DNA of 64,000 bases from contig JABLXN010000003.1 of NCBI GenBank assembly GCA_013177995.1, positions 1 through 64,000 of the forward strand, written 5' to 3'. Below are positions 1,376 through 7,011 of the stretch, piece after piece. Under the pieces are notes generated by a model. It made no database searches. It was not told the DNA's origin and was given only the letters and a program-made list of their open reading frames with translations. Made by a program: the position numbers and the translations under genes. The stretch is from Brevinematales bacterium (GTDB taxonomy: Bacteria; Spirochaetota; Brevinematia; Brevinematales; Thermospiraceae). The number at the start of each line of letters is the position of its first letter. Position 1 is the first letter of the stretch.

Positions 1376-2176
1376 TTATCTCTCTTCTATGAGATTCACT
1401 GTTGAAAGAATCTCAAGCATCTTCTCGTGAACAAGCCCATTGGTGGCCACAATATGCTTGTCAAAGGGGGTAAACTCTCCACCCCTGTAGTTAGTCACCC
1501 TTCCACCTGCCTCCTTCACAAGAAGCATTCCTGCGGCTGTATCCCAGGGCTTGAGATTCTCTTCGTAGAAGGCCTCAAAACGCCCACAGGCCACATAGGC
1601 AAGATCCATTCCCGCTGAACCAAGACGACGAAACCCCTCAAAATCCCTCACTAACGCAGGAAGTGGTTTCATCACCTCTTCTATCCTGCCCTCCCGTTCA
1701 TAGGGAAACCCTGTCACCACTAACGCCTTCCCAATATCGCCGATGGGAGATACCCGAACAGGTTTCCCATTGAGAAATGCCCCCTGTCCCTTGACCGCCC
1801 AGAAGGTTTCATTCAAAATCGGATTGTAGATAACCCCCACCACTACTTCCTTTGAAACCTCAAGCCCGATCGACACACACACAAAGGGAATCTGGTGAGT
1901 GAAATTCACCGTCCCATCAAGTGGATCGACAATCCAGCGCAAATCCGCTTCCCCTTCCCTTGAAAGCATCTCCTCTGTGAGAACGGATGCCTCAGGAAAC
2001 CACCGTACAAGCGTCTCCACAATAACCTCTTCCGCACGCCTATCATACTCCGTCACCGGATCAGCAAACCGCTTGAATTGAATCTCCTTGGGAAGAGAAA
2101 ACCCCTCTTTGATAACCTTGCCCCCGAGCCATGCTGCCTTCAGGGCTACTTTGAGCGCCTGATTATAATCTTTCAT
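1376..2176 (-). CDS. Inositol monophosphatase family protein
   Basis: A 266-aa metal-dependent sugar or inositol phosphatase of the IMPase/SuhB/CysQ family. The metal-binding signature WIVDPLDGTVNFTH lies near residues 84-97 and the C-terminal WDTAAGMLL near 208-216; acidic metal ligands also precede the first motif. The start chosen is ATG 2176, which gives a normal N-terminus and overlaps the end of the upstream fusion gene by 14 bases; a longer frame back to 2266 would extend far into that gene. AAGGGA precedes this start. Translation is probably coupled to the ATP-grasp/oxidase gene. The substrate (inositol-1-phosphate, a nucleotide 3'-phosphate, fructose bisphosphate) cannot be read from the sequence. 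Confidence 0.88.
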   Translation of the reverse strand: MKDYNQALKVALKAAWLGGKVIKEGFSLPKEIQFKRFADPVTEYDRRAEEVIVETLVRWFPEASVLTEEMLSREGEADLRWIVDPLDGTVNFTHQIPFVCVSIGLEVSKEVVVGVIYNPILNETFWAVKGQGAFLNGKPVRVSPIGDIGKALVVTGFPYEREGRIEEVMKPLPALVRDFEGFRRLGSAGMDLAYVACGRFEAFYEENLKPWDTAAGMLLVKEAGGRVTNYRGGEFTPFDKHIVATNGLVHEKMLEILSTVNLIEER

Positions 2177-4424
2177 AAAGTATGTCCCTTTTCCCTTTGA
2201 TTTTTTCCACAGCATCAACGCCGACCAGGGAAAGAGCCTTGGCAAGTTCGTTTCTGAGAGTATCAAAGTAATACCTCACGCCGGCCACTCCCTGACCCAC
2301 CGCATAGATCATCACCGGTCGGCCAATCATCACCATATCTGCCCCAAGCGCAAGAGCCCTTACCACATCCCATCCACTTCGGATCCCCCCATCTAAGATC
2401 ACAGGAAAATCCCACCCCACAGCCTCCCTCACGACGGGAAGAGCATCCACAGGGGCTATAGTCGCATCACTAACCCTGCCCCCATGATTAGAAACCACAA
2501 TAGCAGCTGCCCCCGCCTCTTGAGCAAGTTTTGCGTCCACAGGAGAAAGGATACCCTTGAGAATAAAGGGAACCTTCACCACCCCTATCAGGTCGGCGAG
2601 TTCTTCGACACTTTTCGTCACCGTCGATTGCTTTTTCATCTCCATGGTCACAAAAGAAGCGGCGTCAATATCCATACCCACAGCCACAGCCCCGGCCTCT
2701 TCTGCAGCCAAAAGCCTCTCCACAATCATCCCCCTGTCCATCCGGGGCTTAAAAAACGGAATAGCAAGCCCAAAATTCTCCAGAATCACCTTTATCCCAA
2801 TCCGGTATTTGGTGGGCGTTGCCCCATCACCAACCGTTCCTAAAAGTCCCGCGTGATTGGCCCCCTTCACCATAGCCCGTGCTAACTCGAGTTCAGAGAT
2901 AGCCCCTCCGAGATTCGTAATAGCCCCTGTAATGGGAGAAGGCAAGACGGGCATAGAAAGAGAGAAACCAAAAAGAGAGGTTTCAAGAGAAACCATGGTT
3001 GCCTGATGAATATACGAAGGTATCACATCCCAGCGGCGAAGTCTCTCCACGGCACGGGTAAATCCTGTCCCAAGACCCACACCACCTACCCCTGGAACCA
3101 TCCCGCGACATTTCACCCCATCGCAATCCTGACAAACAAAACACCGCCCATTGAAACGAGTTCTTGCCCTCTCCAGAAGAACAGAAACATTGATACTTTC
3201 TTCTTCCGTGGGCCGAGTCTTCACTTCTATGGCACGAACGGCCTGATGAGAAGCATGAAGAGCCTCTTGATAGGTAGGAGCACAAACAATCACATGCCCA
3301 GCTTTATCAAGATTATTTTGTGGTTCGCGGATCCTGTCCCCTATCTTCACATCAACAAAAACATCCTTCACATACGGAAGAGAAAGGGCTTTTTCCACCC
3401 CTGCAATCTTTTCCACCACCCCCGGCGAAGGAATGATCGCCCTTTCAATAGAAACATAGTCCCGTTTTGGTTTCACATCCCCTATCCCCATCCCTAAATG
3501 AATGCGCAGAATATTTTCCATGAGATCGATACCGGTGGCATAAGGATAGGTATGCGTTGACATGAATCCACCAGAAAGACGAGCCGCAATCTCTCCTACA
3601 AAACTCCCCGTTGGTGTTACCTTGATATCCCCCTTGGCCGCCCCCAACGTGATCCCAAGAGCCTTCACCCCTCGCTGAAAAACCTCAAGCCCTGAAAGAA
3701 TCACCTCCTGGGGCATTTGCGAAGGAAGAATATGCCCTGTCTCCACAAAATAGGGGGCATATTCAATAATCCGATCCGCTACCCCTGTGATAAAAATCTC
3801 CCCCTCTACCACCAAAGCATCTATGCTCAATTCCACCCCATCAATATACTGTTCTATCAAGATACGACCACTTCTTGCATAACGAAAGGCTAAATCACAT
3901 GCTTCCTTCAAATCCTCAAGGGTGGAAACACGCCGGACCCCCCTCGCACCCATATTATCCACCGGCTTGACCACACAATCCCCACCCAACCTCTCAAACA
4001 CCTCTAAAGCCTTAGCATAACTTTCCACCATCTCAAAATCAGGAACTGGAACCCTCGCCTGCCGAAGAGTCTGCCGCATGAGATGCTTATCCGTTGCCCG
4101 ACGGGCCACCTCCGGATCAATACCTGGCACTCCAAGCTTTTGGGCACTCAAAGCCACGGTATAAGAAGCATCTGTTCCCACAGTAAGCACGGCATGAAGA
4201 GGATGTTTTTCCCGACTGACCTGAACAAGGGCTTCTGAGACCACCTCTGCATCAAGAGTACTGGCCGGCACGTAGGTACTTGCCTCTTTCACCCCGGGAG
4301 CCTCTGGGTTCCGATCCACCACTACCACGTAGGCACCCAAGTCTTTTGCCCGACGAATCACCGGGAGTTGAAGCACCCCTCCTCCAATAATCGCTACCCC
4401 CTTTCCCTTGAAAAGATCTCCCAT
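2163..4424 (-). CDS. ATP-grasp domain fused to FMN-dependent alpha-hydroxy-acid oxidase-like domain
   Basis: A 753-aa two-part protein. Residues about 8-400 form a carbamoyl-phosphate-synthase-like ATP-grasp ligase: nucleotide-fold start AIIGGGVLQLPVIRRAKDLG, VVKPVDNMGARGV near 151-163 as the ATP-gripping lysine loop, and FVGEIAARLSGG near 275-286. Residues about 428-753 form a TIM-barrel FMN oxidase of the lactate oxidase/glycolate oxidase group. They show VVSNHGGR and DGGIRSGWDVVRALALGADMV, the usual FMN-phosphate segment. The junction carries four cysteines (428, 431, 434, 439) before GMVPGVGGVG. A Cys-rich N-terminus of this type is known from stand-alone anaerobe members, and a metal or cluster site is an inference. 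The start has a GAGGAG ribosome site. The substrate is unknown; the neighbouring phosphatase suggests a small phosphorylated or hydroxylated metabolite. Confidence 0.85.
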   Translation of the reverse strand: MGDLFKGKGVAIIGGGVLQLPVIRRAKDLGAYVVVVDRNPEAPGVKEASTYVPASTLDAEVVSEALVQVSREKHPLHAVLTVGTDASYTVALSAQKLGVPGIDPEVARRATDKHLMRQTLRQARVPVPDFEMVESYAKALEVFERLGGDCVVKPVDNMGARGVRRVSTLEDLKEACDLAFRYARSGRILIEQYIDGVELSIDALVVEGEIFITGVADRIIEYAPYFVETGHILPSQMPQEVILSGLEVFQRGVKALGITLGAAKGDIKVTPTGSFVGEIAARLSGGFMSTHTYPYATGIDLMENILRIHLGMGIGDVKPKRDYVSIERAIIPSPGVVEKIAGVEKALSLPYVKDVFVDVKIGDRIREPQNNLDKAGHVIVCAPTYQEALHASHQAVRAIEVKTRPTEEESINVSVLLERARTRFNGRCFVCQDCDGVKCRGMVPGVGGVGLGTGFTRAVERLRRWDVIPSYIHQATMVSLETSLFGFSLSMPVLPSPITGAITNLGGAISELELARAMVKGANHAGLLGTVGDGATPTKYRIGIKVILENFGLAIPFFKPRMDRGMIVERLLAAEEAGAVAVGMDIDAASFVTMEMKKQSTVTKSVEELADLIGVVKVPFILKGILSPVDAKLAQEAGAAAIVVSNHGGRVSDATIAPVDALPVVREAVGWDFPVILDGGIRSGWDVVRALALGADMVMIGRPVMIYAVGQGVAGVRYYFDTLRNELAKALSLVGVDAVEKIKGKRDILYERL

Positions 4425-4521: not shown

Positions 4522-4857
4522 TTATTTGAAAGCGGCGAGGGCATCTGCTTCGCTATCGTAGATCTCAAAGAAACTGGTAAGCTTGGTGAGTTCGAAGACC
4601 TTCCGTACAGAGGCATACACATTGATAAGCTTCATGGCGCCCCCTACCTTCTTCAAATTAGACAAACTGGAGATCAATACCCCAATACCGGAACTATCAA
4701 TGTAGCTCACCTTGTCTAAATTGATGATGATATTGACCTTGCCCTTATTGATCTCATCCTTGATCTTCTCCTTGATCTCAGGAGCATTGTACAGGTCAAT
4801 CTCACCCTTGATGTCAAAAATAACCACATCCCCTGTTTCTCTGCGGTTTATCTCCAT
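4522..4857 (-). CDS. STAS-domain anti-sigma-factor antagonist
   Basis: A 111-aa single-domain STAS protein of the SpoIIAA/RsbV type. By family knowledge these bind an anti-sigma kinase when unphosphorylated and are switched by a SpoIIE/RsbU phosphatase. The phosphorylation loop DSSGIGVLIS is intact at about residues 56-65. ATG 4857 is preceded by GGAGGAGG; an earlier TTG at 4872 falls on that ribosome site, so it is not used. It lies immediately downstream of the membrane SpoIIE phosphatase, which is the obvious candidate to dephosphorylate it. No partner kinase or sigma factor is in this window. Confidence 0.92.
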   Translation of the reverse strand: MEINRRETGDVVIFDIKGEIDLYNAPEIKEKIKDEINKGKVNIIINLDKVSYIDSSGIGVLISSLSNLKKVGGAMKLINVYASVRKVFELTKLTSFFEIYDSEADALAAFK

Positions 4858-4894
4858 ACCGGCCTCCTCCAATTTTTCTCTCTTATATTATAGC

Positions 4895-6988
4895 CTATTT
4901 TGCTTTCAAAATCAAGAGGGTTTCATCATCATGCTGGGGCGCATTCCCCACAAAGCGATTCACCTCTTCCAGAATCTTGTTGGCAATTTCACGTGCTGAT
5001 TCACGCTTATAGGTACGAATCACATTCTGAAGCCTCTCCATTCCAAATTCTTCATGCTGAAGATTCATAGCCTCGGTAATACCATCCGTATACAGTACGG
5101 CAATATCGCCACTTTCAAGAGTAGTAAAATCCTGCCCATACGTCACTTCTGGCATAATACCCACCGGCATACCCTCGGTATCCAGGAAATGGAAGGTATC
5201 CTCCGAAGCCCGATACAACACAAGAGGACCATGCCCGGCATTGGTATAGTTCATGAGACCCTTTTCCGCATCATAGAGGAGATAAAACCCTGTCGCATAC
5301 CTATCCTCAACAATCTCCTGGGCAATGGTATTATTGAGCCGTTCAAGAATATGCTTTGTTTCCGCATCCAAAGAAGCAATCGTCCTGAGAATACTTCGAA
5401 TCATCACCATGATGAGAGCGGCAGGCACACCCTTTCCCGATACATCAAACATGGTGAGCGCAATCTTATTATTACCAAAATCAATGTAATCATAATAATC
5501 ACCACCCACTCCCTTCGCCGGGATAGAAAACCCGTAGAGTTCATATTTATCAGTATCAGGAAAACTATGGGGAATGAGAGAACTCTGAATCTCTCCTGCC
5601 ACACCTATCTCTTTCTCTGCCTGTTTCTTCTCAAGCACTTCCTGGTACATCTGGATCTGTTGGATGTTAATAGCGGCCTGTTCTGCCAGGGTTTCCACAA
5701 GACTCAGGTCATTGGCAAGAAAAGACCTCGCATCATCAATCACGGTAAGCACACCAAAGACATTGTCTCTTGACTTCAGGGGAACCGCAATAAAAGACGT
5801 CACCATGAGATAGTCCGGTACAGGTTGTACATACCGGCTGGAGCGAACCGCATCCGGAATATAGATAGGCTCTCCCTCTTCAAGCACCTGACCCAAAAGC
5901 CCTTCTCCTACCGCAATCCGTTCCAGTTTGAATTTTTCAATCAGCATGGATTCCGTCACTGTCATGCCATCGCCGACCTTGAAGGGCTTGGTTGGGGGAT
6001 ACACCCCACTGACATACTTCACCTGCAGCCTGTTGGTCACCGGATCCTTGAGGAGAATAGCCCCACCACGAGCATTGGTACCCCTCACAGCCGCATCCAC
6101 AATACGCTTGATCACTACATCCAGTTCCAGTTCTCCAGAACCCACCACCGCACTGATGTCACGCATGAGTTGGATAATAATATCCTTTTCCTTGTCAAGG
6201 TTTTCTACCTTGGCTTCAAGACCTGCCACAAACTCTCTCTGAACCCCAAAGGAAAATACCGCCATGGCTATCACGCCAACCCAGGAAAGCACAAGCCATC
6301 CCGGCATCTGATAAAAAGCCACTAACATCGAGAAAAGATGGAAGAGCATCTCCTCCACAATATAGGCAAGAAGAAGCGGACGATAGCGATAGATGGGTTT
6401 GAGAAGGTCAATCGTATAACCATAGATAGAACCAAGGCTGAGCCACATCCAGATAAGAAGTCCCACCCGCCAGAGAGAGAGAAACGCTCTCCCCGCAAAC
6501 CCGAGAAAAAACCTATCCAAAAACTCACTTTCGAGACTGAAGCCCTGACGTGCCTGACTCAAGCCAATCACAAGAAGACCAAGAAGCGATAGCACAAGAA
6601 GAACAATCTGAGTAGTGAAGAAAATTCGTATTGCCTTGGTTTTTTTCCGTTCTGCTTCCCTCTTTTCAAGAATAAAAAACCTCGCCACAAACACGACAAC
6701 ACCTGTTTCAAACACATGCCAGAGAAGATATCGCCAATTGTAAAAGTTCACATAGGCTGGATTAGGAACGGTCTGTTCGATATTTGAAATACCCACCTGC
6801 TGTTTCACAAACTCAATATCAAGAAACCCTATCACACTATACAAAAGGGACTTGACAAAAACAAAGGTAAAAAACCAGAAAAGAAACTGGAATAGTCGCT
6901 CTTTGTAGCTTCGTGCCTGAACCGCCATGACAAGCGCAAAGAAAAAGGCAATAACCAGCGGTACCCCAAAGTAGAGATCAAGCTGCAT
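4895..6988 (-). CDS. Membrane GAF-SpoIIE (PP2C-type) serine phosphatase
   Basis: A 697-aa sensor phosphatase. Residues 1 to about 260 contain roughly seven hydrophobic segments (start QLDLYFGVPLVIAFFFALVM). A short coiled coil follows, then a GAF domain at about 285-450 and a SpoIIE/PP2C domain at about 480-697. PP2C metal-site motifs are all present: GVGGDYYDY, FDVSGKGVPAALI, NAGHGPLVLY, LYTDGITEA, HDDETLLI. It probably dephosphorylates the STAS protein encoded 37 bases downstream in response to a membrane or small-molecule signal. ATG 6988 has AGGAGG seven bases before it; the in-frame start at 7003 would overlap that ribosome site. The signal it detects is unknown. Confidence 0.92.
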   Translation of the reverse strand: MQLDLYFGVPLVIAFFFALVMAVQARSYKERLFQFLFWFFTFVFVKSLLYSVIGFLDIEFVKQQVGISNIEQTVPNPAYVNFYNWRYLLWHVFETGVVVFVARFFILEKREAERKKTKAIRIFFTTQIVLLVLSLLGLLVIGLSQARQGFSLESEFLDRFFLGFAGRAFLSLWRVGLLIWMWLSLGSIYGYTIDLLKPIYRYRPLLLAYIVEEMLFHLFSMLVAFYQMPGWLVLSWVGVIAMAVFSFGVQREFVAGLEAKVENLDKEKDIIIQLMRDISAVVGSGELELDVVIKRIVDAAVRGTNARGGAILLKDPVTNRLQVKYVSGVYPPTKPFKVGDGMTVTESMLIEKFKLERIAVGEGLLGQVLEEGEPIYIPDAVRSSRYVQPVPDYLMVTSFIAVPLKSRDNVFGVLTVIDDARSFLANDLSLVETLAEQAAINIQQIQMYQEVLEKKQAEKEIGVAGEIQSSLIPHSFPDTDKYELYGFSIPAKGVGGDYYDYIDFGNNKIALTMFDVSGKGVPAALIMVMIRSILRTIASLDAETKHILERLNNTIAQEIVEDRYATGFYLLYDAEKGLMNYTNAGHGPLVLYRASEDTFHFLDTEGMPVGIMPEVTYGQDFTTLESGDIAVLYTDGITEAMNLQHEEFGMERLQNVIRTYKRESAREIANKILEEVNRFVGNAPQHDDETLLILKAK

Positions 6989-7011
6989 GCAAAGCCTCCT
7001 CAAATCTCACC

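Follow-up and report, generated by a model that had tools for sequence, protein, structure and literature searches.

A long-lived fusion of an ATP-grasp ligase and an FMN 2-hydroxy-acid oxidase-type barrel in Spirochaetota and Nitrospinota

What does a cell gain by joining a carboxylate-activating ligase to a flavin-dependent oxidase? The question is raised by a gene of a Brevinematales bacterium that lies at 2163..4424 on the minus strand of the window, i.e., of the whole 64,000-nucleotide stretch of DNA analyzed here. The frame opens with an ATG at 4424, preceded by AGAGGAG, and runs to a stop codon at 2163-2165, encoding 753 residues; the window genome holds one close copy. The initial annotation described a single frame that joins an ATP-grasp ligase to an FMN oxidase, and this description stands: all domains score above their Pfam cut-offs, and an AlphaFold2 model built on 37 aligned fusions has a mean pLDDT of 91.5 and a pTM of 0.84. 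Two complete, known catalytic frames are carried by one chain, their catalytic residues are conserved, and the fusion is long-lived; the family assignment of each half is practically certain. A sequencing error that would have merged two genes is ruled out, since the long frames examined across the phylum and in Nitrospinota contain no internal stop. A literature search found no description of a ligase-oxidase fusion, which in itself does not prove that no report exists.

The N-terminal half (residues 1-405; 3210..4424, minus strand) is of the L-amino-acid-ligase type. It contains ATP-grasp_4 (PF13535) at residues 149-290, with 56 bits against a curated cut-off of 27, and an LAL_C2 subdomain (PF18603; residues 331-403, 3216..3434, minus strand), with 77.6 bits against 29.4. 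Residues 8-405 of the model best match the L-amino-acid ligase BL00235 (3vot; VIA-align Z 40.4, rmsd 2.5 over 379 residues, 25% identity), a member of the ATP-grasp/LAL_C2 family that resembles the whole 405-residue half. Lys153 is invariant in the 37 aligned fusions, but what we take to be the usual ATP-grasp E-x-N metal pair reads E278-x-A280 in 34 of them, a difference from BL00235. The half is thus a carboxylate-activating ATP-grasp enzyme, as first annotated, but not a carbamoyl-phosphate-synthase-like one: the NCBIfam CarB model (TIGR01369) gives 50.4 bits against a cut-off of 1027.

The C-terminal half (residues 406-753; 2166..3209, minus strand) scores 196.5 bits with FMN_dh (PF01070; cut-off 24.9), the best stretch spanning residues 588-743, and residues 412-753 of the model match mandelate oxidase (5zzp; VIA-align Z 38.2, rmsd 2.4 over 315 residues). 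With the FMN (S)-2-hydroxy-acid oxidases acting on mandelate, glycolate and lactate (5zzp, 1gox) it shares the barrel and the catalytic Lys623, His647 and Arg650; the segment from Lys623 (KGI) to His647/Arg650 (NHGGR) lies at 2475..2558 on the minus strand and aligns with canonical members; K623 and R650 are present in 37/37 aligned fusions and H647 in 35/37. The hydroxy-acid-oxidase barrel of the initial annotation is therefore retained, and the isoprenoid-type (IDI-2) role suggested with it is dropped (TIGR02151, 48.9 bits against a cut-off of 281.3). The pre-mycofactocin synthase MftD belongs to the same FMN_dh superfamily; identity with it was rejected (TIGR03966, 118.9 bits against 470.85). 

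Compared with the canonical oxidases, the fusion barrel lacks the long segment after Asp and has gained a four-cysteine motif. The window protein has no Tyr at the places aligned with Tyr24 and Tyr129, which we take to be the active-site numbering of the canonical glycolate, lactate and mandelate oxidases. An alignment of nine Cys-family sequences with 12 canonical ones shows replacement of the segments that carry these tyrosines, and in the fusions the Gln-Leu-Tyr129 segment has become Lys-Pro (K559 in 35/37, P560 in 37/37). Because both tyrosines are missing, the substrate is probably neither glycolate nor lactate, and even a hydroxy-acid substrate is only presumed.

The motif C428-x2-C431-x2-C434-x4-C439 (3108..3143, minus strand) is invariant in 37/37 aligned fusions, an alignment from which four further long frames of family f14, which lack these cysteines, were left out. 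Relative to 12 canonical FMN oxidases, it is inserted immediately ahead of the G-G segment downstream of Tyr24. The cysteines had been placed correctly in the initial annotation but tied to the joint between the halves, a connection that does not hold: the motif also stands at the start of stand-alone oxidases from spirochaetes and clostridia, and in f14 (four sequences) all four cysteines disappear together with NHGGR, so the motif belongs to the chemistry of the oxidase. Stand-alone "alpha-hydroxy-acid oxidizing proteins" of anaerobes (e.g., Vescimonas WP_212821939.1) are of the same subfamily as the FMN half, at 37-46% identity, but have no attached ligase; the second cysteine is absent from a few relatives (L075, L190). 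Located where canonical members have the Tyr24 segment, the four cysteines would coordinate a metal, most likely as an Fe-S cluster, which may exchange electrons with a carrier and make O2 unnecessary. With the fusion, a Cys4 subfamily of hydroxy-acid oxidases becomes apparent; the sequence-search matches include no solved structure of it.

The fusion is of old origin and widely distributed among spirochaetes and marine Nitrospinota. Whole-protein matches were found in 226 of 294 Spirochaetota genomes (E<=1e-22), and the fusion belongs to a nearly phylum-wide, mostly single-copy, uncharacterized spirochaete enzyme. A single frame covers both halves in 82/294 genomes, and a further 24/294 hold the long frame of f14. 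Full-length fusions occur in 33/77 Nitrospinota genomes, at 45-48% identity, making Nitrospinota and Spirochaetota the two phyla with such fusions among the four searched. Neither the 247 Desulfobacterota nor the 118 Nitrospirota genomes searched gave a match over both halves at E<=1e-60; at this threshold, one-half matches are found in 28/247 and 13/118 genomes, respectively, and are to the oxidase half only in 22/247 and 13/118. With long frames in 106/294 Spirochaetota and 33/77 Nitrospinota genomes, the halves are neither always separate nor joined by error. Among the 188/294 Spirochaetota genomes without a fused frame, 79 hold both halves, 38 the ligase alone, two the oxidase alone and 69 neither (kinship uncorrected); numerous separate oxidases fall into subclades other than that of the fusion. 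A spirochaete genome of 1.14 Mb has separate genes for an oxidase and a ligase of the family. An apparent natural split in genome G139 was discarded, as each piece runs to the end of its contig (10,857 and 25,168 bases).

What might the two halves do together? Judged from sequence, the first would convert a carboxylate and ATP into an acyl phosphate and pass it to an amine or a similar nucleophile, and the second, an FMN barrel with Lys, His and Arg, would take a hydride from a 2-hydroxy acid, or act in reverse. We tentatively favor, at somewhat less than even confidence, a bifunctional small-molecule enzyme that combines 2-hydroxy-acid dehydrogenation with ATP-dependent ligation on a small carboxylic acid. 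That the halves act one after the other on a single acid, probably of the malate or citrate kind, is a slightly more tentative proposal. A shared substrate of this kind is suggested by relatives that sit in TCA and ATP-citrate-lyase gene runs; speaking against a two-step sequence, the gene-neighbor comparison found no neighbor conserved across the spirochaete fusions, 38/294 genomes have the ligase without a detectable oxidase, and the Nitrospirota and Desulfobacterota genomes include matches to the oxidase half only.

The main rival, favored by decayed forms though unlikely on the whole, is that the ligase does the enzymatic work, with the FMN barrel chiefly a structural support or redox-sensing regulator that decays where the switch is not needed, except in the parts contacting the ligase. 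Frames of f14 (L060-L063; 715-723 aa) keep the barrel at near full length without the four cysteines and NHGGR; the call of a degenerate oxidase rests on these four frames of the 24 f14 genomes, and in the tree f14 separates as a starred clade with a branch length of 2.99. Shorter frames of 540-600 aa in other lineages end in a 30-column remnant resembling the final strand and helix of the barrel: an hhalign comparison with six tails gives a score of 29.0 (P 0.0013), whereas 30 column shuffles reach no more than 16.6; single tails by themselves gave no significant match. This remnant may pack on the ligase. The ligase half is also the more common, with matches in 223/294 Spirochaetota genomes at 1e-40, against 187/294 at 1e-10 for the oxidase half. 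Yet most fusions keep Lys, His, Arg and the four cysteines, needless in a mere scaffold, and among the matches listed the oxidase occurs alone in many anaerobes and in Asgard archaea. The ligase, for its part, can work without the oxidase, as indicated by the 38/294 ligase-only genomes and by the lineages in which the oxidase is dead or deleted.

In the ligase tree, stand-alone ligases fall into more than one group, with at least three label changes forced by starred branches (a quick tree with a poor root and long rows). Their scatter and the barrel-end remnants fit a fused ancestor from which the oxidase was lost or deleted several times. The last ~35 aa of L066, L069, L082, L087, L091 and L131 retain a W..RGG.QG..Y..D-like pattern despite deletion of the oxidase. 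In three f14 genomes (G026, G038, G049), an intact Cys4 oxidase is also encoded separately (L072-L074). Family f21 is a second ATP-grasp/Cys4-oxidase fusion of very divergent sequence, encoded at L070:7839-10007, L071:7399-9561 and L079:7148-9316; its ligase half is 21-25% identical, and its genomes also keep the main ligase alone. With its ATP-grasp half on a branch 6.52 long, f21 is only a candidate for an independent second fusion; by its FMN half it clusters with short stand-alone oxidases (97/98).

The fusion could also serve co-production only, the halves being independent enzymes of a common pathway without a shared intermediate. That each half also occurs alone agrees with this idea, which we consider less likely still, the covalent joint having been kept across two phyla despite a loose gene order.

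The genomic setting in Nitrospinota is more regular. The next gene after the fusion encodes a protein of 261-325 aa with a weak HpcH/HpaI aldolase match at 16/17 loci. Both ATP-citrate-lyase (ACL)-like genes, first an ATP-grasp/citrate-binding subunit and then a succinyl-CoA-ligase/citryl-CoA-lyase-like subunit, lie near the fusion at 14/17 loci, and the four genes form an uninterrupted run at 10/17. The run of fusion, HpcH/HpaI-like gene and both divergent ACL genes was seen at L258-L271 and L136. The authors of the Nitrospina gracilis genome assume function for two genes whose similarity to recognized ACL subunits is very low; it is on such poorly matching ACL genes that the reverse TCA cycle of Nitrospinota is assumed to rest, and the passages concerned do not mention the fusion (PMC3578206).

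Asgard archaea have the stand-alone oxidase in comparable company. At L191, the gene order is fumarase, FMN oxidase, two citrate synthases and an aconitase-sized gene; at L190, the oxidase is followed by citrate synthase and aconitase; and at L193, it follows a 2-oxoacid:ferredoxin oxidoreductase. The L190/L191 oxidases are of the subclass without the second cysteine (seen in L190). The lactate/malate dehydrogenase family PF02866 is absent from 3/3 Asgard genomes, but this was discarded as proof of an Asgard role, as PF02866 is also absent from 4/5 spirochaete genomes tested, and PF00180 is present in 7/7 genomes tested; PF02866 is present in 5/6 Nitrospinota genomes tested.

A broader reading, which we regard as a long shot, would place the fusion in an undescribed branch of central carboxylic-acid metabolism, as a two-step enzyme in which a flavin/Fe-S 2-hydroxy-acid dehydrogenase works with a low-potential carrier and is coupled to ATP-dependent ligation. 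If true, the Nitrospinota fusion would act in citrate cleavage (reverse TCA cycle) as an unrecognized component next to the very divergent ACL genes, and the Asgard stand-alone oxidase would replace malate dehydrogenase. Because the Nitrospinota relative adjoins ACL genes, the biochemistry of this one protein would bear on marine carbon fixation. Elsewhere, stand-alone ligases on plasmids (L254, L255, L256) lie in capsule, O-antigen or nonulosonate clusters, at 34-36% identity in Parabacteroides and Solidesulfovibrio and 32% in Enterococcus; this context would fit amide formation, but with a different substrate.

Closer to the window gene, an inositol-monophosphatase-family gene lies 3' of the fusion (1376..2176, minus strand; PF00459, 249 bits). 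The initial annotation had it overlapping the fusion, which it does, though start analysis points to an ATG at 2176 and an overlap of 14 bases rather than 104. A three-step route that would include this phosphatase, as then proposed, is hardly credible: the two genes lie on one strand and their arrangement recurs in L032 and L033, but among the neighborhoods compared the phosphatase directly follows the fusion only within the genus of the window, and a different gene follows it in Nitrospinota. In L043 and L044, a phosphatase homologue is found two genes away on the opposite strand. Other neighbors are similarly bound to lineages, e.g., an MnmA-type gene in L054-L056 and TPR and unknown genes in f14. 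A gene for a TrpB-like PLP enzyme (NF009057/TIGR01415) is found directly upstream of the fusion in L034 (6442-7803) and L036-L038, families f2/f3. In the window, genes for a STAS protein and a GAF/SpoIIE-phosphatase protein, likely a regulatory switch pair, lie just upstream of the fusion (4522-7003, minus strand), and within this genus and order several further genomes have homologues of them upstream of the fusion.
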